A stretch of DNA of 20,582 nt from Chloroflexota bacterium. GTDB taxonomy: Bacteria > Chloroflexota > UBA6077. Where the stretch lies: contig JAJYKO010000010.1 in NCBI GenBank assembly GCA_021788565.1, forward strand, positions 1 to 20,582, given 5' to 3'. Position 1 is the first letter of the stretch; every line of letters starts with the position of its first letter. Of the stretch, positions 1 through 20,390 are shown one piece after another. A program made the position numbers and the translations under genes. The notes beneath the pieces are model-generated. The model did no database searches. It was not told the DNA's origin and saw only the letters and a program-made list of their open reading frames with translations.

Positions 1-571
1 CCTGGCTGAGAATGAACCGGTCCTCCCCAGTGTGTGGAAGGGACTCCCCCTGGCTTCGCCAGTTGTCGGTGATCTCCGCCGCGACCGAGTAGCTTCCTTC
101 GATACTCGCTATGACGTTCTCGCCGCCGACGAGCAGCGCAGCCGCACCATCGCCGTAAGTCGCTTCGAACGGCGAGCCCGGAGAGGCTTTGCGGAGATCG
201 GACGCTGCCACCATCACCTGTCGCGCCGAACCCGCGGCGACCGTGTCTACCGCCATCCTGAGGGCAGTCGTGCCTGCCTTGAGGGAGTCTGTCAGATCGG
301 CCGTCACCACTTGCTTTGGGAGATCGACCGCGGTCGCGATGATAGTCGCACTCTGCTTCTCGACGTACGGGGCAGTGGTAGAGGCGAAGTACAGGCCCTC
401 TACTTCGCCTCTACTACGGCTCGATAGGCAGTCAATACAGGCGGCGACGGCCATGGTGATGCTATCCTCGTCGAAATTGGCCACTGCCTTCTCGCCGCGA
501 CCTTTACCCACATCTGCTAGGTTGACCCGCCATAGTGGGACATATGCCCCGTATGAGACTATCCCAACCAT
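1..571 (-). CDS. HMG-CoA synthase-like (thiolase superfamily) protein, N-terminal part, runs off the window
   Basis: Reading leftward from an ATG at 569-571, the minus strand is open for 190 codons to the window edge. The start follows GAGAGG at a short distance. The protein opens MVGIVSYGAYVPLWR, then AVANFDEDSITMAVAA and LYFASTTAPY near residues 30-69. These are hallmarks of bacterial and archaeal HMG-CoA-synthase/KAS III-like proteins that are often fused or paired with an OB-fold domain. A conserved GDGAAALLVG stretch follows near 140-149. The position where archaeal HMG-CoA synthases carry the acyl-accepting Cys (Cys-Lys-Ala-Gly-Thr) reads Leu97-Lys-Ala-Gly-Thr, so the usual nucleophile is absent in this copy. 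It begins 16 bases after the CaiB-type gene stops and is the last visible gene of the minus-strand operon. Family assignment is strong; a true HMG-CoA synthase role is doubtful, and an acyl-CoA-handling role is inferred. Confidence 0.85.
   Translation of the reverse strand, partial: MVGIVSYGAYVPLWRVNLADVGKGRGEKAVANFDEDSITMAVAACIDCLSSRSRGEVEGLYFASTTAPYVEKQSATIIATAVDLPKQVVTADLTDSLKAGTTALRMAVDTVAAGSARQVMVAASDLRKASPGSPFEATYGDGAAALLVGGENVIASIEGSYSVAAEITDNWRSQGESLPHTGEDRFILSQ
375..417. repeat. 17-bp inverted repeat inside the HMG-CoA synthase-like gene
   Basis: The arms 375-391 and 401-417 are reverse complements with one mismatch in 17 positions (core GTAGAGGCGAAGTA, 14 bp perfect). They are separated by a 9-nt spacer. 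The right arm encodes the conserved Tyr-Phe-Ala-Ser-Thr motif on the minus strand and the left arm the variable loop before it. It would form a strong RNA hairpin within the coding region. Confidence 0.8.
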
Positions 572-4143: not shown

Positions 4144-4815
4144 CTAGGACTCCACGGTCTTGACTGGATCGAGGATCACCAGGCGAGCCTCGGTCGCCGC
4201 CTGCACCTGCTCCACCGTCACGCCGGGTGCGATCTCCTGCAGCACAAGTCCATCACGGGACACGGCGATCACAGCCATGTCGGTGAAAATCTTGGTCACC
4301 GCCCGCTGAGCGGTCAGCGGGTACGTTAGCCGCCGCACTATCTTCGGCGTGCCGTCTTTGGTGGTGTGGGTCATCATGATGAAGACTCGCGGCGTGGAAC
4401 TAGCTATGTCCATCGCTCCCCCTACGCTGCCGGCGCGCTCCCCCGGCAACTTCCAGTTCGCCATGTCGCCGTTCTCGGCTACCTGGAAAGCCCCGAGGAT
4501 GGCCGCGTCGAGGTGCCCACCGCGGATGATGGCGAAGGAGTCGGCGTGGTGAACGAAGCAGCCGCCCGGCATCAACACCACCGGGAACTTCCCCGGGCTG
4601 AGCAGGTCCGGGTCCGCCAGAGCCGGGTCAGTCACAATGGGGCCTATGCCAACTATGCCGTTCTCGCTGTGGAAGATGACGTCCCGGTCCGGCGGTACGT
4701 AGGGTAAGACCGACGTGGGCATCCCGATGCCGACGTTGACTAGCCAGCCGTCCTGCAACTCCATCGCAACACGACGCGCTATCTGGTCTTCGGTCAGTCT
4801 CGTCATATCTGCCAT
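4144..4815 (-). CDS. 3-oxoacid CoA-transferase family, subunit B
   Basis: Starting at ATG 4813-4815, which follows AGGAGG by about 7 bases, the product has 223 residues, normal for a class I (SCOT/PcaJ/GctB-type) beta subunit. It shows WLVNVGIGMPT (about 24-34) and the catalytic glutamate Glu51 in HSENGIVGIGP, the residue that forms the glutamyl-CoA thioester in this family. A longer reading from a TTG at 4848 would add 11 residues but would place the ribosome-binding site inside the gene, so I rejected it. It follows subunit A after 46 bases, and together they should make a heteromeric CoA-transferase acting on a short or 3-oxo acid. The natural substrate is not decidable here. Confidence 0.93.
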   Translation of the reverse strand: MADMTRLTEDQIARRVAMELQDGWLVNVGIGMPTSVLPYVPPDRDVIFHSENGIVGIGPIVTDPALADPDLLSPGKFPVVLMPGGCFVHHADSFAIIRGGHLDAAILGAFQVAENGDMANWKLPGERAGSVGGAMDIASSTPRVFIMMTHTTKDGTPKIVRRLTYPLTAQRAVTKIFTDMAVIAVSRDGLVLQEIAPGVTVEQVQAATEARLVILDPVKTVES

Positions 4816-4861
4816 TCCGGCCCCTCCTGGTGAAGAGATGGGCGACAACCTTACGCGTCAC

Positions 4862-5524
4862 TCACGGTCGAATGAAATAGCGGTCGACGAAAACCCCGGG
4901 GGTGATGATGCACTCAGGGTCAAGGCTACCCAGCGGCACCTCCTGGTTGGCCTCGACCACCACCGTCTTCCCCGCCATCGCCATCAAGGGATTGAAGTTG
5001 CGTGCCGCCTTTCGGTAGGTAAGATTGCCCAGCGGGTCCACCTTGTCGGCCCGAACCAGCGCGAAGTCGGCAGCGATAGGAACCTCGAGGAGGTACTGAC
5101 GACCTCCCACCTCGATCACCTGTTTGCCGTCTGCCAGCTCCGTCCCGAGCCCGGTGTGCGTCAGAAATCCCCCCAAGCCAGCACCAGCAGCCCGAATCCT
5201 CTCGGCCAGAGTGCCTTGTGGCACAATCTCCAGGTCGACTCGCCCCTCATTGTATGCGTTGCGGAAATGGTAAGCGTCCTTGGCCCAGGGGAAGCTGCAG
5301 ATCAGTTTGCGAGCACAGCCGGCCTTGACCAGCTTAGCGATACCTGTTTCCCCATACCCGGAGTTGTTGTTAATGATGGTGAGGTCGCGAACCCCCATCT
5401 CGCTGACGGCCTCCAGCAGAACCTCAGCGACTCCGGCGCGGCCAAACCCTCCGATCATGATTACCGCACCATCGAATATGCCGGATACTGCCTCGGCCGC
5501 GCTCTGCACCCGCTTCCGTTTCAT
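4862..5524 (-). CDS. 3-oxoacid CoA-transferase family, subunit A
   Basis: The 220-residue alpha subunit carries the glycine-rich CoA-binding signature VIMIGGFGRAGVAE (about 21-34), the LTIINNNSGYGETG motif (48-61) and the PIAADFALVRADKVDPLGNLTY-type block near 149-170. All are typical of SCOT/PcaI/AtoD-like subunits. ATG 5522-5524 is preceded by GGAGGGCTATGG, a good ribosome-binding site. It is the first gene of the minus-strand operon. The 133 bases upstream separate it from the response regulator gene and are the natural place for an operon promoter. The ScoAB-type enzyme would activate a carboxylic acid at the expense of succinyl-, acetyl- or acetoacetyl-CoA. Confidence 0.93.
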   Translation of the reverse strand: MKRKRVQSAAEAVSGIFDGAVIMIGGFGRAGVAEVLLEAVSEMGVRDLTIINNNSGYGETGIAKLVKAGCARKLICSFPWAKDAYHFRNAYNEGRVDLEIVPQGTLAERIRAAGAGLGGFLTHTGLGTELADGKQVIEVGGRQYLLEVPIAADFALVRADKVDPLGNLTYRKAARNFNPLMAMAGKTVVVEANQEVPLGSLDPECIITPGVFVDRYFIRP

Positions 5525-9632: not shown

Positions 9633-9658
9633 ACCATTCGCAGGATGGAGAAGAGCAG

Positions 9659-10153
9659 ATGAGCCGGGCAGACCTGATTCGAGAACAACTGGAGCGGTGT
9701 GGCATCGAGTACCTCGTGTGGCTGCCGGACACCGAGGTACGAACGTTCTACGACAGCATACAGGCCGCGCAGAATTTGCAGCTGCTGCAAGTCTGCCACG
9801 AGGAAGAAGCGATTGGGCTATATACGGGCCTCTACCTGACCGGCAAGCGTGCAGCGATCCTAATCCAGAACAGCGGAATGCTGCATTCCTTGGACGCCCT
9901 GGGGCACCTGGTCGTGAAACTCCAGATCCCTCTACTGCTGATGCTGGGGTATCGCGGGTACCACAAGATGCTGAGCGGCCACCAGCCGCTGGACTACGCT
10001 GCCAAGTTCACTGAGCCGGTACTGGCCGCAATGGAGATCAAGTCCTACCTGGTAGACAACGACGAAGAGGTAGAAAACATCGGCCGCGCATTCCGAGAGG
10101 CGATGAACGGCGACAGGCCAGTAGCACTGCTGTTCGGCGCGGAGGACGAATGA
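9659..10153 (+). CDS. ThDP-dependent decarboxylase, N-terminal (PYR) subunit, sulfopyruvate/phosphonopyruvate decarboxylase alpha-like
   Basis: The 164-residue protein starts at ATG 9659-9661, shortly after the livF relic ends, with GGATGGAG just upstream. It is the pyrimidine-binding domain of a split ThDP enzyme, with the catalytic glutamate cluster at 48-50 in CHEEEAIGLYTG and the LIQNSGMLHSLDAL motif (about 68-81) typical of ComD and phosphonopyruvate decarboxylases. It pairs with the next gene (one base between stop and start), which carries the ThDP diphosphate-binding domain. Together they should decarboxylate a 2-oxo acid to an aldehyde. Whether it acts on sulfopyruvate, phosphonopyruvate or another acid is not resolved. 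A longer frame opening at 9539 overlaps the relic and lacks family resemblance, so I did not use it. Confidence 0.87.
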   Translation: MSRADLIREQLERCGIEYLVWLPDTEVRTFYDSIQAAQNLQLLQVCHEEEAIGLYTGLYLTGKRAAILIQNSGMLHSLDALGHLVVKLQIPLLLMLGYRGYHKMLSGHQPLDYAAKFTEPVLAAMEIKSYLVDNDEEVENIGRAFREAMNGDRPVALLFGAEDE

Positions 10154-10154
10154 C

Positions 10155-10718
10155 ATGATGGACAAACTTGAGACACTGAGACTCCTCTCGAGACACCGTA
10201 CGAACGAGATAGTCATTACCACCATGACTCAGACCTGGATTTGGCCGTCCATCACAGCCAATGCTGATCTGGACTACCCGGCCTACGGGGTTATGGGTCA
10301 TGCCGCCTCGGTCGGCCTCGGAGTGGCGATCGGCCGGCCGGATCGCCGAGTATGGATATTGAACGGCGACGGCAGCCAGCTCATGTATCTCGGCTCGATC
10401 GCCAGCATCGTTAGCGCAGGGGCTCGGAACGTCGTGCTGTTTATCCTGCAGAACGATCAGTACGAGATGACCGGTGGCCAGCCGATCCCGGGGGCAAGGC
10501 GAATCGATTTCGCCATGGTAGGGAAGGGGCTCGGCATGAAGAACGGCTACAACTTTGACAGCCTGTCAGATCTCGACGCGAAGCTTCCGGGTATCTTGAA
10601 AGAGGAAGGTCCAACGATCGTGGCCCTCAAGATCGGTACCGCCGAGGTCGCTAATCCTAGGTCCCCCATCATGAGGGAAGAGGTGCGGCGGTTCCGGGAG
10701 GTTCTAGCGCGGCTCTGA
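10155..10718 (+). CDS. ThDP-dependent decarboxylase, C-terminal (PP) subunit, ComE-like
   Basis: This 187-residue ThDP diphosphate/Mg-binding domain has the classical motif Gly71-Asp72-Gly73-Ser followed 26 residues later by Asn100 (NGDGSQLMYLG to FILQNDQYEMTGGQ). YGVMGHAASVGLGVAIGRPDRRV (about 44-66) is typical of ComE and acetolactate synthase-type enzymes. It starts one base after the PYR subunit stops, so the pair is translationally coupled and forms an alpha/beta enzyme. Downstream, 26 bases on, is the OYE-type reductase. The closest family names are sulfopyruvate decarboxylase beta and phosphonopyruvate decarboxylase C-terminal domain; no other coenzyme M or phosphonate genes are present, so a different 2-oxo acid is plausible. 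Confidence 0.88.
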   Translation: MMDKLETLRLLSRHRTNEIVITTMTQTWIWPSITANADLDYPAYGVMGHAASVGLGVAIGRPDRRVWILNGDGSQLMYLGSIASIVSAGARNVVLFILQNDQYEMTGGQPIPGARRIDFAMVGKGLGMKNGYNFDSLSDLDAKLPGILKEEGPTIVALKIGTAEVANPRSPIMREEVRRFREVLARL

Positions 10719-10744
10719 GTAGTCCGACGTCGGAGGAATCTGGA

Positions 10745-12670
10745 ATGACCCAAGCCATGGAGGCCCTGTTCACTCCCGGCCGGATCGGGACACTCGCGGT
10801 GAAGAATCGGCTGGCGATGCCACCTCTGTCCACCAACTACGCGGCTTGGACAGGCGAGGCTACTGATCGGCAGATCAGGTACTACGCTGAGCGGGCTCGC
10901 GGCGGCGTGGGCCTTATAACCGTCGAGTACGCCTACGTGCACTTCTCCGGCAAGATCGCCTTCTACACTTTGGGAATCCATAACGACGCCATGGTCCCGA
11001 GGCTGAAGGAGCTGGTGGACGCCATCCACTCGGAGGGCGCGAAAGCAAGCATCTTGATCGCCCACGGAGGTCGGCGGTGCAGGAGCGAGATCACAGGGAG
11101 CCAGCCGTTTGGACCCTCGCCTGTGCCGTGCCTCGGCGGTGAGGTGCCCAGGGAGCTAACAACAACTGAGATCCCAACTGTTCTGTCCTGGTTCGAGCAG
11201 GCGGCAGCGCGCGTGGGCGAGGCTGGCTTCGACGCGGTAACTCTCCATCTCACCGCAGGTTACCTACTAGAGAGCTTCCTCTCCCCGTACTCCAATCAGC
11301 GAAGGGATGAGTATGGCGGAAGCCTGGAGAACCGGATGCGCCTTTCACTCGAGGTGCTGGAGCGGGCGCGGAGCGCGCTGGGGAGGGATTTCCCGGTGCT
11401 CTGCCGGCTCTGCGTGGACGAGTTCATCGATGGCGGCCTGACGCTAGACGAGGCCAAGCGGGCGGCGCAGATGTTCGAGCGGGCCGGACTAGACGCAATA
11501 GACACCATAGCGGGCATCCCGGAGTCCATGCATCTACTCGCTCCTTCGATGGCGGTGCCAAAGGGGTACCTGGTGTCTCACGCACGGGCCATCAAGGAGG
11601 TGGTGAGCATCCCTGTTTTCGCTGTGGGCCGCATCAACGATCCTCTGTTGGCTGAGAGTATTCTGCGGGAAGGCAGTGCCGACTTCATCGACATGGGTCG
11701 GGCGCTAGTTGCCGACCCAGCGCTTCCCAACAAGGCAGCGGAAGGACGCTTCGACGATATCTGCCCGTGTATCGCCTGCAACGAGGGCTGCCACCAGCGG
11801 TTGTACGCCCAGGTCGACATCAGCTGCGTGACGAACCCTCTGGTGGGCCGCGAGGCCCTGTTCCCTGAGACTCCTGCTTCCCAACCAAAGAAAGTTCTGG
11901 TAGCTGGAGGTGGGCCCGCGGGGATGATGGCCGCCCTCACAGCGGCCAGGAGGGGCCACTCAGTCGTGCTGTGCGAGGAGGGAGACCGGATTGGCGGCCA
12001 GCTCTTGATGGGCTGTCTGCCCCCGCACAAGGAGGAGATCCGCACCCTTATCGATTACCTGACACACCAGGTGGCCAAGACTGGCGTCCAGGTCCGTACG
12101 CAGACTGCGGCGACCGAGGAACTGGTGAAGGAGACAGGCGCCGAGGTGGTGATCGTAGCGACCGGGGCAAGGCCGGCCCAGCTTAACATACCCTCCGTGG
12201 ACGCTAGGATCATCTCCGCGTGGGACGTGCTCTCCGGAAGGGAAACTGTTGGCTCGCGCGTTGTGGTGATCGGCGGCGGTGAGGTGGGCTGCGAGCTGGC
12301 CGAGCTCCTTGCCACCCAAGGCAAGGAAGTGACGATCCTGGAGCTCGCGGACGACCTGGCAACCAATATGGAGCCGAGGGGCAGGAAGATGCTGATCGGC
12401 CGGCTTCGAGAAGCGGGGGTAAAGGCGCTTATGAAGAGCGCGGTCAGCGAGGTGACCGGCCGCACAGTGCTCTACGAACAGGGTGGGCTGAAGAACCGGA
12501 TAGTAGAAGTGGATGCGGTCATCTTGGCCGTGGGTTCCGCGCCCCACAACGTTCTGGGCGGGGCGCTCAAACGCACGGGGACGACCGTCCACATTATCGG
12601 CGATAGCGTGAAGCCGAGGCGCATCCTAGAGGCGATCCGCGAGGGGTTCGAGCTGGGCTATGCGCTCTAG
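10745..12670 (+). CDS. NADH:flavin oxidoreductase / 2-enoate or 2,4-dienoyl-CoA reductase family
   Basis: The 641-residue protein has the three-part layout of FadH and 2-enoate reductases. An OYE-type FMN TIM barrel (1 to ~335) comes first (LFTPGRIGTLAVKNRLAMPP; LLESFLSPYSNQRRDEYGGS). Next are the [4Fe-4S] ligands Cys342-x2-Cys345-x3-Cys349-x11-Cys361, an FAD/NAD Rossmann motif GGGPAG at 388-393, and a second NAD(P) motif IGGGEVGCELAE near 510. GGAGG precedes the ATG by 8 bases. Oddly, the usual OYE active-site text His-Gly-Ala-His-Gly-Tyr-Leu reads His168-Leu-Thr-Ala171-Gly-Tyr-Leu, so the second His is lost. It should reduce an activated C=C bond with NAD(P)H; the substrate is unknown. It lies between the ThDP enzyme and the alcohol dehydrogenase. 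Confidence 0.93.
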   Translation: MTQAMEALFTPGRIGTLAVKNRLAMPPLSTNYAAWTGEATDRQIRYYAERARGGVGLITVEYAYVHFSGKIAFYTLGIHNDAMVPRLKELVDAIHSEGAKASILIAHGGRRCRSEITGSQPFGPSPVPCLGGEVPRELTTTEIPTVLSWFEQAAARVGEAGFDAVTLHLTAGYLLESFLSPYSNQRRDEYGGSLENRMRLSLEVLERARSALGRDFPVLCRLCVDEFIDGGLTLDEAKRAAQMFERAGLDAIDTIAGIPESMHLLAPSMAVPKGYLVSHARAIKEVVSIPVFAVGRINDPLLAESILREGSADFIDMGRALVADPALPNKAAEGRFDDICPCIACNEGCHQRLYAQVDISCVTNPLVGREALFPETPASQPKKVLVAGGGPAGMMAALTAARRGHSVVLCEEGDRIGGQLLMGCLPPHKEEIRTLIDYLTHQVAKTGVQVRTQTAATEELVKETGAEVVIVATGARPAQLNIPSVDARIISAWDVLSGRETVGSRVVVIGGGEVGCELAELLATQGKEVTILELADDLATNMEPRGRKMLIGRLREAGVKALMKSAVSEVTGRTVLYEQGGLKNRIVEVDAVILAVGSAPHNVLGGALKRTGTTVHIIGDSVKPRRILEAIREGFELGYAL

Positions 12671-14163: not shown

Positions 14164-14814
14164 ATGGTGGTTGGACTTATGCTAGCACAGCTTGAGGGGG
14201 CCGTGATCGACGGCCAGGTGGACGAAGCCAGACAATTGACCCAGGAGGCGGTGGCGGCCGGCATTCCTCCGCACGTGGTCTTCTCCCAAGCCCTCTTTCC
14301 AGCAATGAGCGAGGTGGGCAGGCGCATGCAGGCGGGCGACTACTTCATCCCTGAGGTCCTGGTATCCGCCAAAGCGATGAAGGCAGCCGCAGAAATCCTG
14401 ATCCCCCTCATCGCGCGTACTGGTGAGAGCCGGTCCAGAGGAAAGGTCATGATGGGAACCGTCAAGGGAGACCTCCACGATATCGGCAAGAATCTCGTGA
14501 AAATGATGCTCGAGGGGGCAGGTTTCGAGGTAATCGATCTGGGAATCGACGTGGCGGCCGAGCGATTCGTTGCCGCGGTGAAGGAAACCCGACCTCAGGT
14601 GCTAGGTCTGAGCGCCATGCTCACCACCACCATGCTGCAGATGCCGAAGGTGGTGCGGGCGCTCCAGGAGGAAGGGGTTCGCCCCCTGGTGAGGATTATG
14701 GTGGGCGGCGCGCCGTTGAGCCAGAGCTTCGCCAACGAGATAGGCGCCGACGGTTTCGGCATGGATTCCGCGGCCGCGGTGGAATTAGTCCAGAGATGGG
14801 TGCCGGCGGAGTAG
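14164..14814 (+). CDS. Methyltransferase cognate corrinoid protein (MtbC/MttC/MtaC-like)
   Basis: This 216-residue protein has an N-terminal helical cap domain (about 6-85: LEGAVIDGQVDEARQLTQEAV, GDYFIPEVLVSAKAM) and a C-terminal cobalamin-binding Rossmann domain. The B12 signature is Asp103-Leu-His105-Asp-Ile-Gly108 in GTVKGDLHDIGKN, followed by LGLSAMLTTTM and GGAP. His105 would be the lower axial cobalt ligand. It shuttles methyl groups between a substrate-specific methyltransferase and an acceptor-side enzyme. No strong ribosome-binding site precedes ATG 14164; the ATG at 14179 (residue 6) gives the more typical family N-terminus. It is followed 9 bases later by a UroD-type methyltransferase. 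No MttB/MtaB-type enzyme or reductive activase gene is in the window. Confidence 0.94.
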   Translation: MVVGLMLAQLEGAVIDGQVDEARQLTQEAVAAGIPPHVVFSQALFPAMSEVGRRMQAGDYFIPEVLVSAKAMKAAAEILIPLIARTGESRSRGKVMMGTVKGDLHDIGKNLVKMMLEGAGFEVIDLGIDVAAERFVAAVKETRPQVLGLSAMLTTTMLQMPKVVRALQEEGVRPLVRIMVGGAPLSQSFANEIGADGFGMDSAAAVELVQRWVPAE

Positions 14815-14823
14815 GAGCGACGT

Positions 14824-15927
14824 ATGAGCAGCAAACCCAACTTTGAGCGGCTCCGGAGGGCCCTGCTCCTGCAGGGGGAACCCGACAGGGTCCCGATGCT
14901 GGAAACCAGCGTAGATCGGGATGTAAAGAAGGCGGTGCTGGGGCGCAGAGTGGTGACGGCCGAGGACGAGGTCGAGTTCTGGATGACCGCCGGCTACGAC
15001 TACGCTCCATTCGCCGTCGGCATGCGCCTGATGCTGAACACGGCCACCAATCGGGCGCAGCCTGCGCTGATGCTGGACCACGCGGAAAAGTCGACCCGCA
15101 CCACAAGCGCCCAGTACGCAGCTTTCGAAGACGAGGCGCGGGAACGCGCCTGGGCCGAGGAGGGTACTGGCATCATTGCCGGATCCGCAGAATTCGAGTC
15201 GATCAAGTGGCCAGATCCGGAAGCTATCGACTATACGGCGGCGGAGAATCTTGGGCGCTACTTGCCCGAAGAAACGAAAGTGGTGGCCAGCATCGGCTAC
15301 ATAATCGCCACCGTGATTCGCCTCATGGGGTTCCAGAACTTCTGTGAGAAGCTGATCGAGGAGCCGGACCTGGTGGCCCGCGTCTTTGACAAAGTCGGGC
15401 AATTCCAGCTTCGAGTGTTCGAGACGGTGGTAGCGATGGACGTCGTCGGAGCTACCGTCCAACATGATGACGTGGCCTATGCCGGTGGTCCGATGGTCAG
15501 CCCCGCGTTGTTGAGGAAATACCTCTGGCCGTGGTACGGGGAGATGTGCCGAATCTCCCGAGACAAGGGCAAGCCCATCGTCTACCACTCCGACGGCAAC
15601 GCCACCCGATTGCTGGACGACATCGTTGCAACCGGGTTCCATGGCCTCAACCCGATAGAGCCCAAGTTCATGGATATTGTCCAAGTGAAGCAGCGGTATG
15701 GAGATCGGCTAGCCCTCGTGGGCAACATCGACCTTGTTTACACGCTCACGCGGGGCACCCCGGAAGAAGTTGACGCTGAGGTGCGGCAGCGGATTCGCGA
15801 CTTAGCGCCAGGGGGAGGATACGCCCTGGCCTCCGCCAACTCGATAACCGAATACGTTCCTGTCGCGAACTACAACGCTATGCGTGAGGCCGTCTTCAAG
15901 TACGGGGCATATCCTATCCAGGTGTGA
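14824..15927 (+). CDS. Uroporphyrinogen decarboxylase (UroD)-family corrinoid methyltransferase
   Basis: This 367-residue TIM-barrel protein of the UroD/MtaA/MtbA/CmuA superfamily is placed directly after the corrinoid protein (GGAG ahead of ATG 14824). Recognisable blocks include NFERLRRALLLQGEPDRVPM near the start, YHSDGNATRLLDDI (about 254-267), GLNPIEP (274-280) and ALVGNIDLVYTL (297-308). In MtaA and MtbA the zinc site is His-x-Cys...Cys. Here the first part reads His255-Ser-Asp-Gly and no equivalent late Cys is seen (LASANSI), so it belongs to the HSDG subgroup. It probably transfers a methyl group between a methylated substrate or tetrahydrofolate and the corrinoid protein. True heme-biosynthetic UroD is unlikely from sequence and context. 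Confidence 0.9.
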   Translation: MSSKPNFERLRRALLLQGEPDRVPMLETSVDRDVKKAVLGRRVVTAEDEVEFWMTAGYDYAPFAVGMRLMLNTATNRAQPALMLDHAEKSTRTTSAQYAAFEDEARERAWAEEGTGIIAGSAEFESIKWPDPEAIDYTAAENLGRYLPEETKVVASIGYIIATVIRLMGFQNFCEKLIEEPDLVARVFDKVGQFQLRVFETVVAMDVVGATVQHDDVAYAGGPMVSPALLRKYLWPWYGEMCRISRDKGKPIVYHSDGNATRLLDDIVATGFHGLNPIEPKFMDIVQVKQRYGDRLALVGNIDLVYTLTRGTPEEVDAEVRQRIRDLAPGGGYALASANSITEYVPVANYNAMREAVFKYGAYPIQV

Positions 15928-15997: not shown

Positions 15998-17143
15998 ATG
16001 TCGCTGCGACGTGCATGCGCCGTCGTGGGCGTGGCCGAGTCGCGACTCGGAGTAGTGCCGGATGCGACGGTTCTGACCCTCCAGGCCGAAGCGGCGGCGG
16101 CCGCCCTAGCCGACGCCGGGCTCCAGAAGTCCGACGTTGATGGCTTGCTTTGCGCCGGCCGTTGGAGCTCCACGATGCAGCTTCAGCTCGCAGAGTACCT
16201 GGGCATCAACCCATCCTTCTCCGACGGGACTACCGTCGGAGGCGCCTCATTCGAATTCCACCTGGGTCATGCCGCCGCGGCGATCCGGGCGGGACTCTGC
16301 AACGTGGCCCTCATCCTCTACGGAAGCACACAGCGGTCGCGCCGGGAGCGGAGCCTCGGGAGCCGAGAGGCTGGGCTAGGCTACCAGTACGAGAGTCCAT
16401 ACGGGATGCCGTCCCCGGTCGGGGCGTACGCCATGGCGGCCTCCCGCCACATGGCGCTCTATGGGACAACCTCGGAGCAGCTGGCTGAGGTGGCAGTAGC
16501 GGCCAGGAAGTGGGCGACGCTGAACCCCAGGGCGTATCGTAGGGAACCCTTGACGGTGGAGGATGTGCTGGGCTCAGAGATGATCTCGACCCCGCTCCAC
16601 AAGCTGGATTGTTGCCTGGTTACAGATGGCGGCGGGGCAGTGGTCGTGGTCAGCCCGGAGATCGCGCGATCGCTGCGTAAGCCGCCGATCTGGCTTCTCG
16701 GACACGGAGAAGCCCATTCCCACGCCATGATCTCTCAGATGCCGGACCTCACAGTATCGCCTGCCGCTCAATCGGGCAGTCGCGCTTTCGCCATGGCCGG
16801 GCTTCGTCCCTCTGACGTCGATGTTGCGCAGATCTACGACTCCTTCACCATCACCGTGCTGCTGACTCTCGAGGCGCTCGGGTTCTGCAAACCCGGGGAG
16901 GCAGGCGCCTTCGTATCGGGTGGGAGGATAGCCCCGAGAGGAGAGTTCCCCCTGAACACCAGCGGCGGAGGCCTCTCCTACACTCATCCTGGCCAGTTCG
17001 GGATCTTCCTGATCATAGAGGCAGCGCGGCAGCTATGGGGCGAGTGCGGCGAACGGCAGGTACCGGACGCGGAGGTCGCACTTGTCAGCGGGACAGGCGG
17101 AGTACTCTCTTCCAACTCCACGTGCATTCTAGGGAGGGACTAG
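15998..17143 (+). CDS. Thiolase-superfamily protein lacking the condensing cysteines (SCP-x/Ltp-like)
   Basis: The 381-residue protein has a very strong ribosome-binding site (AAAGGAGGG, 9 bases before ATG). The fold is evident from ACAVVGVAESRLG at the start, VGGASFEFHLGHAAAAIRAGL (80-100), a helix-loop IYDSFTITVLLTLEALGF (279-296) and GGGLSYTHPGQFG (323-335). Where degradative thiolases carry the nucleophile Cys the text is Gly-Gly-Ala-Ser84-Phe, and the second Cys of the C-terminal loop is replaced in VSGTGG (363-368). His330 remains in the His-Pro-Gly loop, and Tyr280 and Tyr328 lie near the predicted pocket. It is followed after 2 bases by a DUF35 protein, the arrangement of Ltp2-ChsH2 retro-aldolases and of BbsAB-type thiolases. 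Aldol C-C cleavage of a CoA ester is my favoured role; a scaffold role is possible. Confidence 0.9.
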   Translation: MSLRRACAVVGVAESRLGVVPDATVLTLQAEAAAAALADAGLQKSDVDGLLCAGRWSSTMQLQLAEYLGINPSFSDGTTVGGASFEFHLGHAAAAIRAGLCNVALILYGSTQRSRRERSLGSREAGLGYQYESPYGMPSPVGAYAMAASRHMALYGTTSEQLAEVAVAARKWATLNPRAYRREPLTVEDVLGSEMISTPLHKLDCCLVTDGGGAVVVVSPEIARSLRKPPIWLLGHGEAHSHAMISQMPDLTVSPAAQSGSRAFAMAGLRPSDVDVAQIYDSFTITVLLTLEALGFCKPGEAGAFVSGGRIAPRGEFPLNTSGGGLSYTHPGQFGIFLIIEAARQLWGECGERQVPDAEVALVSGTGGVLSSNSTCILGRD

Positions 17144-17145
17144 AG

Positions 17146-17556
17146 ATGCCGGAGCAGATCATAGACCCAGACGCCGCTCCCTACTGGGAAGGCGTTGCCA
17201 AAGGCGAGCTCAGGTATCAGTGGTGCATGAGCTGCGGCCGGGCGTTCTTCTTCCCACGGACGGTGTGTCCGCACTGCCTGTCCAAAGAGCTGGAGTGGCG
17301 GAAGTCGCGAGGTCTGGGGCAGGTGTATGCCTTCACCGTGGTACACCGAGCCCCGGATGCGGCCTTCGCTCAGAGGGTGCCCTATGTTGTCGCGATGGTC
17401 GATCTGGAAGAGGGATTCCGCATGATGTCCAGCGTCGTCTCCTGCTCACCGGATGCCGTCCGCGTCGGAATGGAAGTCAGCCTTGTCTTTGGAACCGGCG
17501 TCGACGGCCAGCAGCTGCCCTATTTCCGGCCGAAGGTACCGGGTGAGGGGCGATGA
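17146..17556 (+). CDS. DUF35 Zn-ribbon/OB-fold protein, partner of the thiolase-like protein
   Basis: This 136-residue protein starts at ATG 17146, two bases after the thiolase-like stop; AGGGAGGG overlaps the end of that gene. The N-terminal helix (PYWEGVAKGELRYQWC) leads into a zinc ribbon with Cys27, Cys30, Cys41 and Cys44, followed by an OB-fold (about 53-125, GQVYAFTVVHRAP then PYVVAMVDLEEG). DUF35 proteins bind the thiolase-fold partner and help hold CoA substrates, as in archaeal thiolase/HMG-CoA synthase complexes and the Ltp2-ChsH2 aldolase. Strict coupling with the upstream gene supports a heteromeric complex. Confidence 0.93.
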   Translation: MPEQIIDPDAAPYWEGVAKGELRYQWCMSCGRAFFFPRTVCPHCLSKELEWRKSRGLGQVYAFTVVHRAPDAAFAQRVPYVVAMVDLEEGFRMMSSVVSCSPDAVRVGMEVSLVFGTGVDGQQLPYFRPKVPGEGR

Positions 17557-17560
17557 GACG

Positions 17561-18253
17561 ATGAGCGCACCGATGGTTCCGGTCTTCATCATGGGCAAGC
17601 GGTTCGAGGTCCCGCTCGGGCTGACCATTGTGAAGGCGTACGAGCACGCAGGCTTCCAACTGGTGCGGGGTGTGGGCTGCCGAGGTGGCATCTGCGGTGC
17701 CTGCGCCACGGTCTATCGTCTTCCTGGAGATCACCATCGTCGAACAGGGTTGGGCTGCCAGACGGCCGTCGTGCCTGGCATGATCCTCGCACCGGTGCCT
17801 TTCTACCCCACCCAGCGCCCGCCCTACGACTTGGATGCCATCACCGATCCCGCCCTCGGCGCCGCGCAGGTGTTTCCTGAGATTCAGAACTGTCTGGGCT
17901 GCAACGCCTGCAACAAGATCTGCCCGCAAGACATAGACGTCATGGGCTATGTGGCGGCCATCCTGGCGGGGGACCTGGAAAAGGCTTCCGACCTCTCCTT
18001 CGATTGCATTATGTGCGGCCTGTGCGCGAGCACCTGCCCGGCTGAGATATCGCAGTTCAACGTGGCTCTCCTCGCCAGGCGTCTTTACGCACGGTACATG
18101 ACGAAAGGCTCCTCCAAGGTACCGCGCCGGGCGGAGGAGATCCGGAACAGGAAATATGATGCGGAAGTGGCGCGCCTCGCAAGCCTCGGCGAGGTCGAAC
18201 TGAAGAAGCTGTATGCCTCCCGAGAAATGCTCACCGAGATGGTCACGAAGTGA
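17561..18253 (+). CDS. Iron-sulfur subunit with one 2Fe-2S and two 4Fe-4S sites (FrdB/TfrB-like)
   Basis: From ATG 17561 (AGGGG ahead) the product has 230 residues. A plant-type/SdhB-like 2Fe-2S domain has Cys40, Cys45, Cys48 and Cys66 (GCRGGICGACATVY; GLGCQT). Two ferredoxin-type clusters follow: Cys111-x2-Cys-x2-Cys-x3-Cys121-Pro and Cys149-x2-Cys-x2-Cys-x3-Cys159-Pro. Classical SdhB/FrdB has one 4Fe-4S and one 3Fe-4S/quinone-proximal site; here both look like full 4Fe-4S sites, as in TfrB/HdrC-type proteins. No membrane anchor gene is adjacent. It ends 13 bases before the flavoprotein, so the two should form an electron-transfer pair. The electron partner is unknown and may be soluble. Confidence 0.92.
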   Translation: MSAPMVPVFIMGKRFEVPLGLTIVKAYEHAGFQLVRGVGCRGGICGACATVYRLPGDHHRRTGLGCQTAVVPGMILAPVPFYPTQRPPYDLDAITDPALGAAQVFPEIQNCLGCNACNKICPQDIDVMGYVAAILAGDLEKASDLSFDCIMCGLCASTCPAEISQFNVALLARRLYARYMTKGSSKVPRRAEEIRNRKYDAEVARLASLGEVELKKLYASREMLTEMVTK

Positions 18254-18266
18254 TGAGAGGTCGATC

Positions 18267-19876
18267 ATGAGCTACCCGGTGGAGATGCAGAAGTCGTTGG
18301 ATCGCGCCTCCGCCACCCGGAGCCAACGGTTGAAGGAGACATTCCCCAGGCTGACACCCGAGGAGAAGGCGATCCTGCTGGAACGGCATCATCCCGACTA
18401 CAGAGCCACGGGGATGCGAGAGATAAGCCTGGGAGTGAATAAGGGCGACAGGGCGGTCCACGAGTTCGTCGATATCCTGGAGGCTCACAGCCGCGTTGCC
18501 ACCAACAATATAGACCTCAGCGCTCCGGACCGGGAGGTGGATGTCCTGGTGCTCGGCGCAGGCGGTGGAGGCTCGACGGCGGCGCTGATGGCTCACGATC
18601 AGGGGGCCAGGGTGCTGCTCGCAACCAAGCTGCGCCATGGCGACTCGAACACAATCATGGCAGAAGGAGGAATAGCGGCGGCCACGGAGCCTGAGGACTC
18701 TCCGATGGCACACTTCATCGATACCATGGGCGGCGGCAGATACCAGAACGTCCCAGAACTCGTCATGGCGCTGGTCCTTGAGGCCCCCCTCATTGTAGAG
18801 TGGCTGGAGAGCCTGGGCGTGATGTTCGATCGACTGCCGGACGGCTCAATCCTAACCCATGCCCCTGGCGGCCACAGCCGTCGACGCTCTCACTCCTGCC
18901 GAGACATGACGGGACTGGAGTTCATGCGGGTTCTTCGCGACCAGATCCGGACTCGCGGCATCGAAGTGTTGGAGTTCAGCCCCGCCATCGAACTGCTGAC
19001 CGACAGGACTGGCCGCTGCACCGGTGCGCTGCTGTACGACTTCGATACGCACACTTACCTGGTGGCCAGGGCGAAGACCACGATCCTGGCTACAGGGGGG
19101 ATCGGCCGGCTTCATCCCAGGCAATTCCCCACGTCCAATCACTACGGAGCCACGGCCGACGGCCTCGCCATGGCCTACCGGGCTGGAGCGAAGCTGATCT
19201 ATATGGATGCCATCCAGTACCATCCCACCGGGGTGGCCTGGCCGGAGCAGATACTGGGCCTACTGGTCTCTGAGGCGCTGCGAGCCCACGGAGCGCAGCT
19301 GGTGAACGCGGAAGGCCGGCAGTTCGTGCATCCACTCGAGACGCGGGACACTGTTTCCGCTGCAATCATCCGCGAGTGCGACGAGCGAAGGACCGGGGTT
19401 GTGACTCCAACTGGGATGCAGGGCGCCTGGCTGGACACGCCGATGATAGACATCTTAGGTGGCAGGGGGAAGTTCGAGCGGATGTTCACCGGCATATTCA
19501 AGCGGTTCCGCGGGTACGGTATCGACGTGACCCAGGAGCCGATCCTCATGTATCCCACGCAGCACTACCAGAATGGCGGATTGCTCACCGACGAGCATGG
19601 GCGAACCAGCCTCCACGGGCTGTACGCGGCAGGCGAGGTGGCTGGGGGAACCGACTCGGGGCCAACTCGCTGGTGGACATCTTCGTCTTCGGCCGCAGGT
19701 CCGGGCTCCACGCCGCGGCTCAGTCGAAGGAACTGGAGTTCGGCGATCTGGGTCTCGGGCACGTCCAGGATTACGAGGAGCAGCTCAGGTTGGCCGGCAT
19801 CGACACGACGAGGACCTCGCCGATCCTCCTCCCCGACTACACCACCCCCGAAACCAGGAAGAGGAGGGTCAACTGA
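18267..19876 (+). pseudogene. Succinate dehydrogenase/fumarate reductase-type (FrdA/NadB-like) flavoprotein, frameshifted
   Basis: It starts at ATG 18267 (GAGAGG 6 bases upstream). An ~85-residue N-terminal extension precedes the FAD Rossmann motif GAGGGG (97-102). The usual covalent-FAD His-Thr motif reads Asn128-Thr-Ile-Met-Ala-Glu-Gly-Gly, and GGHSRRR (201-207) is as in L-aspartate oxidase; the active-site loop is His319-Pro-Thr-Gly. The frame breaks at about 19644-19650. Up to there it reads AAGEVAG; from there the conserved NRLGANSLVDIFVFGRRSG is read only in the -1 frame (19646 onward), ending at TGA 19874-19876. The invariant Gly-x-His-Gly before Asn-Arg-Leu-Gly is missing, consistent with loss of ~13 nt. 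Without correction the original frame runs on into the fumarase beta gene. It is either a true inactivation or a sequencing/assembly deletion. Confidence 0.87.
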
Positions 19877-19877
19877 C

Positions 19878-20390
19878 GTGGAGCGTATGAGGATCGAGAC
19901 CCCCATACCCGCGGAGGTGGCGAAGAGCCTGCGGGTGGGACAGGCGTTCGAGATCTACGGCAAGATCCTGTGCGGTCGCGACGCGGTGCTGCCGAAATTG
20001 GTGAAGATGGCCTCCGAGGGCACGCTGGGCGATCTAGCCGGCCGGCTGGAGGGCTCGGTCATCTTCCACACGGCCGTCAGTCCGGCAGGGATCGGCCCGA
20101 CGAGCAGCAACAAGGTGGAGATCGAAGGCAGCATCGTTCCCCTTTCGACGGCTGGGGTGCGGGTCCACCTTGGTAAAGGGGCCATCGGCGCCGACACCAT
20201 CTCCGGCCTTTCGGCCAGCGGCAGCGTGTTCGCGGTGACCCCTCCCGCGACTGCTCTCTTCATGGACAAGATCGTTTCCCAGCGGGTGCTGGCGTTCCCC
20301 GAAGAGGGGATGGAGGCTCTGTTCGAGGTGGAAGTCGCGGGGCTTCCAGCCATCGTCGCCGCGGCCCAGGGTGAAAGTATCTTTGGGTAG
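19878..20390 (+). CDS. Class I fumarase / tartrate dehydratase, beta subunit (C-terminal Fe-S hydro-lyase domain)
   Basis: This is a 170-residue product from GTG 19878, which has AGGAGGG 9 bases upstream inside the flavoprotein tail; ATG 19887 is an alternative start. The family features are the early IETPIPAEVAKSLRVG, a GRDA motif at 33-36 (for the usual ARDAAH) and GPTSSNK at 73-79 (for GPTTSxRM). A glycine-rich C-terminal half has KGAIGADTISG. The beta subunit forms part of the active site of the two-subunit fumarate hydratase and L-tartrate dehydratase. It lies next to the alpha subunit (9 bases), which carries the Fe-S ligands. Together with the upstream FeS/flavoprotein genes it suggests a succinate-fumarate-malate step. 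Confidence 0.9.
   Translation: MERMRIETPIPAEVAKSLRVGQAFEIYGKILCGRDAVLPKLVKMASEGTLGDLAGRLEGSVIFHTAVSPAGIGPTSSNKVEIEGSIVPLSTAGVRVHLGKGAIGADTISGLSASGSVFAVTPPATALFMDKIVSQRVLAFPEEGMEALFEVEVAGLPAIVAAAQGESIFG

Follow-up and report, generated by a model that had tools for sequence, protein, structure and literature searches.

The thiolase-like gene and its DUF35 partner

The region analyzed here (the window) comprises 20,582 nucleotides of contig JAJYKO010000010.1 from a Chloroflexota bacterium (GenBank GCA_021788565.1), and its central feature is a pair of adjacent genes on the plus strand, which encode a thiolase-like protein (15998–17143, 381 aa) and a DUF35 protein composed of a zinc ribbon and an OB fold (17146–17556, 136 aa). 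Both open reading frames (ORFs) had been proposed in an earlier note on this DNA, and the coupling it reported was borne out, the DUF35 gene starting 2 bases after the thiolase-like gene. The thiolase-like protein has a predicted thiolase fold and belongs to the NCBIfam subfamily NF004811 (PRK06158, "acetyl-CoA acetyltransferase"), scoring 525.8 bits against a curated cut-off of 421. Its partner carries the Pfam domains zf-ChsH2 and OB_ChsH2_C, and its best matches were the chains 9myr_B and 6ok1_B; at the level of the genes, it is therefore an adjacent partner of the ChsH2 type. These chains belong to two steroid aldolases that served as references, namely CtSal-Shy(DUF35), the bile-acid side-chain aldolase of Comamonas testosteroni (Sal; PDB 9myr; PMC12329534), and Ltp2-ChsH2(DUF35), the cholesterol side-chain aldolase of Thermomonospora curvata (PDB 6ok1).

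The alignment of the thiolase-like protein with seven solved relatives placed the nucleophilic cysteine of BbsB and SCP2 thiolase, situated in the N-terminal half of thiolases, on Gly82, and the HDCF/HDAF motif of thiolases on Y280-D281-S282-F283, with a tyrosine for the motif histidine and a serine for the cysteine, while the histidine of the thiolase GHP motif was retained as His330. The earlier note was thus right that the condensing cysteines are absent from the catalytic positions and that Tyr280 and His330 are kept, whereas the other sites it named did not hold. It had pointed to the region of Ser84 as the nucleophile site, but the column is that of Gly82, which also dismisses Ser84 as a substitute nucleophile; it had named SGTGG (residues 364–368) as the other site with a replaced cysteine, which is no sign of an aldolase, as the Cys-type enzymes 6hsj (SCP2), 7pxp (BbsB) and 7yvy also lack a cysteine there; and it had listed Tyr328 among the kept residues, but this residue fails as a marker or second catalytic tyrosine, being present in BbsB and corresponding to Phe in Sal and Glu in Ltp2. 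The informative second site, the position of the HDCF motif, had been missed.

The residue set was highly conserved in a table of 200 rows composed of the query, 80 genome loci and 119 database proteins, in which broken ORFs were retained and gave rise to gaps. Gly82 was found in 198 rows (the two gaps being the broken ORFs L070 and L079), Tyr280 in 199 (one gap, L011), and His330 in 196 (Glu in three, one gap), while position 282 was occupied by Ser in 180 rows, Cys in 10 and Ala in nine, with one gap. In the query's own clade, all 40 rows carried Gly82, Tyr280 and His330, with Ser (37) or Ala (3) at position 282; Ala was also present in two plasmid relatives, and the five of the 10 Cys282 loci that were placed in trees all fell in sister YDCF groups. 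Since natural relatives carry Ala at this position, Ser282 can probably be dispensed with, and the constant pair that remains is Tyr280 and His330. When the sister groups were included, an alignment of 47 rows contained 33 invariant columns, among them Gly82, Tyr144, Tyr280, Asp281, Thr321, Gly323, Gly324 and Gly367, and the His330 column was conserved in at least 90% of the rows. A protein 97% identical to the query and obtained from a separate source bears the same active-site residues, so that the set is not the product of chance or of a sequence error. A hidden reactive cysteine is improbable on sequence grounds: Cys205 (197 of 200 rows), Cys206 (192) and Cys297 (195) are well conserved but, judging by the sequence, lie off the catalytic sites, and Ltp2, BbsB and SCP2 share the CC pair; position 329, adjoining His330, is a cysteine in 137 rows but a threonine in the query.

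When compared to the two steroid aldolases, the query shares the base tyrosine and differs in the remaining residues. Tyr302, Cys304 and Gln352 of Sal align with Tyr280, Ser282 and His330, and the same three positions correspond to Tyr294, His296 and Tyr344 in Ltp2. According to PMC12329534, the tyrosine of the YDxx motif deprotonates the beta-hydroxyl in both enzymes, whereas the acid differs, being Tyr344 in Ltp2 and Cys304 in Sal, where the replacement of Cys304 by Ala, Ser or His yields inactive enzyme. In the query, the essential cysteine of Sal is replaced by Ser282 (Ala in some relatives), and Gln347/Gln352 by Gly325/His330. The zinc ribbon of its partner reads C-x2-C-x10-C-x2-C (C4) in the sequence; the same paper describes a C4 site in ChsH2 and a C3H1 site in the DUF35 of Sal, which is moreover fused to a MaoC hydratase, in contrast to the separate gene of the query. 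The likeness to Ltp2-ChsH2 put forward in the earlier note therefore stands for Tyr280, which matches the YDHF base tyrosine of Ltp2, and for the adjacent ChsH2-type gene, but not for the second residue, as the query has Ser282 and His330 in place of His296 and Tyr344. Both reference enzymes act on steroids, while the substrate of the query is predicted to be non-steroid. Another enzyme of this kind, Atf1-ChsH4 of Mycolicibacterium neoaurum, is described in PMC10398937 as Sal-type, 56% identical to Sal1 and active on a sterol substrate.

The nearest solved structure is PDB 4u4e, a putative thiolase of the same subfamily from Sphaerobacter thermophilus DSM 20745 (61.8% identity), whose active-site stretches (VGG, YDSF, LSYTHPG and GTGG) showed no difference from those of the query. 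The benzoylsuccinyl-CoA thiolase BbsAB (PDB 7pxp) shares the thiolase plus DUF35 architecture and the GHP histidine; however, BbsB retains the nucleophilic cysteine and an HDAF motif, is 28.8% identical to the query and groups with the Cys-type enzymes in the trees. An identity as a BbsAB-type thiolase was rejected, with scores of 127.5 bits for the BbsB equivalog of NCBIfam (cut-off 750) and 35.5 bits for that of BbsA (cut-off 250). In the open-licence literature we found no functional study of PRK06158 or paper on 4u4e, although earlier work may exist, and none combining DUF35, thiolase-like, CoA-transferase and degradation; judging from titles and abstract openings, the open-licence literature on DUF35 retro-aldol or aldolase enzymes concerns steroids.

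Phylogenetic position

The trees were built without the four active-site stretches and without broken or short ORFs (L011, L013, L070 and L079), rows more than 80% identical to a retained row, three entries representing the genes of L001, L010 and L033 (L082, L084 and L085), one entry with no match (L100) and a 185-aa fragment (L108). A second tree was rooted with eight FadA-type thiolases and omitted the long branches L092, L096, L098, L105, L107, L109 and L110, as well as L165, which had no ORF. In the first tree (73 rows), 19 thiolase-side rows were split from all 54 Tyr-type rows with a support of 100/100. In the rooted tree, 52 Tyr-type rows formed one clade without the nucleophilic cysteine (100/100) nested within Cys-type enzymes, a topology that points to a probable single loss of the cysteine in the lineage leading to it.

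Within the Tyr-type rows, the query clade, Sal and L069 formed one set (98/95 in the 73-row tree and 98/91 in the rooted tree), while the Ltp2-like rows and five YDCF rows formed the other (88/73 and 89/89). On this sequence evidence, the query clade is placed between two experimentally proven steroid aldolases, Sal and Ltp2. The position of Sal as the direct sister of the query clade was weakly supported (93/61 and 85/15), and the approximately unbiased (AU) test of a tree in which Sal, the Ltp2-like rows and the remaining Tyr-type rows were held together to the exclusion of the query clade gave a p value of 0.043, which speaks only marginally against that grouping. A further group without the nucleophilic cysteine (L074, L078, L080 and L091) was situated on the Ltp2 side of the trees, with a YDCF motif and no histidine at position 330; its members L074, L078 and L080 lie beside acyl-CoA dehydrogenase and enoyl-CoA hydratase (ECH) genes, the first two also beside CaiB, and the group may represent yet another aldolase type.

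Gene organization in the window and in related loci

The neighborhood described in the earlier note was confirmed by domain searches. Upstream of the pair on the plus strand, the gene of a corrinoid protein (B12-binding, MtgC/MtbC-like; 14164–14814, also supported by profile search) ends 9 bases 5' of a gene encoding a URO-D/MtaA-like methyltransferase (14824–15927), whose profile scores were under all listed NCBIfam cut-offs and which is located 70 bases 5' of the thiolase-like gene. Downstream, also on the plus strand, a gene encoding an FrdB-like iron-sulphur protein with Fer2 and Fer4-type domains (17561–18253) starts 4 bases after the DUF35 gene and is followed, after 13 bases, by that of an FrdA/TfrA-like flavoprotein (18267–19876) and by a gene for a fumarase C-terminal (beta) domain protein (19887–20390). 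The intergenic gaps across the first six of these genes are thus 9, 70, 2, 4 and 13 bases, and from this spacing the methyltransferase gene probably belongs to the same operon as the thiolase-like gene. The FrdA-like gene shows a frame break near 19,650, with the FAD domain in one frame and the C-terminal part in another, followed by the separate fumarase-beta frame; the break may be real or a sequencing error. The Fumerase_C domain corresponds to residues 535–706 of the ORF 18267–20390, within which the ATG at 19887 was chosen as the start of the fumarase-domain gene, a start that is uncertain.

On the minus strand, approximately 10 kb from the pair, the window contains a family I CoA transferase composed of subunit A (4862–5524; TIGR02429, 308.2 bits, cut-off 128.5) and subunit B (4144–4848; TIGR02428, 266.6 bits, cut-off 243.55). 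Subunit A shared 53–64% identity with CoA transferases at related alphaproteobacterial loci (among the 12 matches listed), and subunit B, which bears a SENG stretch that we take to be the catalytic-Glu motif, was 58–62% identical to the partner subunits at 11 loci. A CaiB gene of the window scored 201.5 bits against the profile of succinyl-CoA:mesaconate CoA-transferase, under the cut-off. No steroid-pathway gene was recognized in the window, which is short (20.6 kb). Other genes include a two-subunit thiamine pyrophosphate (TPP) enzyme resembling sulfopyruvate/phosphonopyruvate decarboxylase followed by an old-yellow-enzyme-type flavoprotein (BaiCD/mycofactocin OYE-like; 9656–12670, plus strand), all with scores under the listed NCBIfam cut-offs, and an HMG-CoA-synthase/PhlA-like protein (2–571, minus strand) truncated by the start of the window. 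The latter carries TDSLKAGTTAL, with no cysteine, at what is presumably the usual catalytic-Cys stretch, and two PhlA-type chains compared with it likewise lack the cysteine.

The gene content of relatives was considered within a radius of 5 kb at 89 loci, comprising the window itself, the best 80 of one genome scan and eight regions from an order that was grouped with a Chloroflexota genome; these loci are not independent, as 19 belong to Mycobacterium or Mycolicibacterium. A DUF35 gene was present in 84 of the 89 loci; of the remaining five, L068, L071 and L075 end near the gene, and L021 and L041 had no match within 5 kb downstream. Short-chain dehydrogenase/reductase (SDR) genes were near in 44 loci, ECH in 28, MaoC and AMP-forming ligases in 23 each, acyl-CoA dehydrogenases in 17, family I CoA transferases in 16 and ADP-forming acyl-CoA ligases in 14. 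The mycobacterial loci accounted for 19 of the cases each for MaoC, AMP-forming ligase, ECH and SDR, so that among the 70 other loci MaoC was near in four, ECH in nine and SDR in 25. The CoA transferase subunits A and B were situated downstream of the pair in most of 13 alphaproteobacterial cases and upstream in Nitratireductor L010 and in L145, while a fused gene was located upstream in L147 and L150; the number of CoA-transferase matches per genome ranged from 4 to 8 in eight genomes partly selected for having the pair. In the Nitratireductor aestuarii cluster (L010, 3720–16764), the pair is accompanied by genes encoding DUF6282, an FAA hydrolase, CoA transferase A and B, an acyl-CoA dehydrogenase, AtuA and ECH, along with a 1037-aa open frame with no Pfam match at 0.001. 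The pair of L144 lies with two P450s, a ligase, ECH, MaoC and an SDR. Among 233 plasmid records matching, 25 were listed and six regions examined, which bore varying sets of acyl-CoA ligases, CaiB-type transferases, acyl-CoA dehydrogenases, MaoC/ECH hydratases, SDRs, solute transporters and regulators, one of them with TcuAB and a citrate-synthase-like lyase.

The corrinoid protein and methyltransferase genes adjoined the pair only in the window (one of the 89 loci). A search for the same operon with the window methyltransferase (1e-60) gave matches in three of 301 genomes drawn from the phylum to which G009 (a Dehalococcoidia record carrying L056) belongs, and in none of 289 drawn from the class of G003, which carries L001. 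Two corrinoid/URO-D methyltransferase gene pairs (L139, 35–1899; L140, 210–1960) with 63–67% identity to those of the window are present in genome G098, one at a contig edge and the second followed by genes encoding a TctC receptor and an Nramp-like transporter; the thiolase relatives of this genome are located on other contigs.

Proposed reaction and alternatives

The predicted fold, the loss of the catalytic cysteine, the near-constant Tyr280 and His330, the place of the protein in the trees between proven aldolases, and the DUF35 gene near most relatives lead us to favor, with somewhat better than even confidence, the reading that the pair is a putative DUF35-dependent thiolase-fold (retro-)aldolase acting on the Calpha–Cbeta bond of a beta-hydroxyacyl-CoA that is probably not a steroid. 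The proposal of the earlier note, an aldolase for a different CoA ester, is thereby supported in part by the trees, which put the protein on the aldolase branch, while its catalytic residues needed correction. The enzyme would cleave this bond, or form it in reverse, releasing a short acyl-CoA such as acetyl-CoA together with an aldehyde or ketone. By analogy with the same tyrosine in Ltp2 and Sal, Tyr280 would take the proton from the beta-hydroxyl; His330 may act as the acid or stabilize the enolate, the role of Tyr344 in Ltp2; and the backbone NH groups of Gly82 and Gly368, at the places of Gly89 and Gly391 of Sal, could hold the oxygens. DUF35 would shape the substrate channel. The substrate may be an acid activated to its CoA ester by a CoA transferase or ligase and, in some lineages, then hydrated, and the SDRs could either convert the product aldehyde or ketone or generate a beta-ketoacyl-CoA. 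On the best reading of the sequences, Tyr280 and His330 would form a third catalytic set for thiolase-fold aldolases.

The neighboring CoA transferases or ligases, acyl-CoA dehydrogenases and hydratases show a setting of CoA-ester catabolism. Three of the 19 thiolase-side rows lack Cys82 (present in the other 16) and three carry Tyr at 280; cysteine loss has therefore occurred in other lineages as well, and an aldolase cannot be recognized from either residue by itself. The neighbors do not decide the reaction type either, because the frequent SDRs keep in play a Cys-free cleavage of beta-ketoacyl-CoA at the end of ordinary beta-oxidation, where a ligase or CoA transferase, a dehydrogenase, a hydratase and an SDR acting as 3-hydroxyacyl-CoA dehydrogenase would precede a direct attack by CoA or water with His330 as the base. 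An SDR that makes beta-ketoacyl-CoA is the basis of this alternative, the main one considered; besides the 44 loci with an SDR nearby, the SDR gene lies directly upstream of the pair in several relatives (L014, L152 and L156), a 3HCDH C-terminal domain is encoded upstream in L151, and the family I CoA transferases of 16 loci recall classical beta-keto acid modules with a CoA transferase, such as atoDAB and pcaIJF. We nevertheless consider it unlikely, as Gly82 takes the place of the nucleophile in 198 of 200 rows, the motif histidine of Cys thiolases is Tyr in 199, and tree and fold group the protein with aldolases; to our knowledge, no thiolase functions without its nucleophilic cysteine.

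The same aldol chemistry could also serve only in the synthetic direction, joining acetyl-CoA or propionyl-CoA to an aldehyde or ketone (e.g., a 2-oxo acid) to yield a beta-hydroxyacyl-CoA. Aldol reactions are reversible, and the dicarboxylate-type neighbors in the window (the FrdAB-like pair, the fumarase domain and the CaiB gene) and those of L151 (TcuAB, a citrate-synthase-like lyase and a TRAP transporter) would suit it, but the six plasmid regions look catabolic, with transporters, ligases, acyl-CoA dehydrogenases and IclR/GntR-type regulators, and we regard this option as improbable. A malonyl-CoA-type decarboxylase following the logic of KS-Q, in which His330 and the backbone would stabilize the enolate after CO2 loss and the CoA transferase would supply malonyl-CoA or a substituted malonyl-CoA, appears more improbable still, given that the nucleophile position is Gly rather than Gln, that the near-constant Tyr280 would be left unexplained and that CtSal is without such activity according to PMC12329534. 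The loss of the catalytic cysteines could finally be explained by a protein without catalysis of its own, a scaffold or pseudoenzyme for acyl-CoA binding to which a partner enzyme is tethered via DUF35, but the fixed pocket columns hardly fit a dead pocket, and we assign this explanation the slightest probability of all.

Returning to the aldolase, we tentatively extend the proposal, at less than even confidence, to the PRK06158/4u4e subfamily as a whole, which would constitute a third, Cys-free aldolase design, with a tyrosine as the base and the old thiolase histidine as the acid, acting on non-steroid beta-hydroxyacyl-CoA derived from organic acids in at least five phyla (Pseudomonadota, Actinomycetota, Chloroflexota, Thermomicrobiota and Acidobacteriota) and, in the window, operating together with the corrinoid methyltransferase and the FrdAB-like pair in an undescribed catabolic route. 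The constant residues and the small two-gene unit, along with the homologous crystal structure 4u4e, make the reading directly testable. If it is true, a widespread family carries the name of thiolase in error, and any pathway reconstruction in which a PRK06158-type protein completes a beta-oxidation cycle would be wrong at the C–C cleavage step. Thiolase-fold aldolases would then extend beyond steroid breakdown, and the pair of Tyr and His would provide a third residue set for testing how a thiolase pocket became that of an aldolase.
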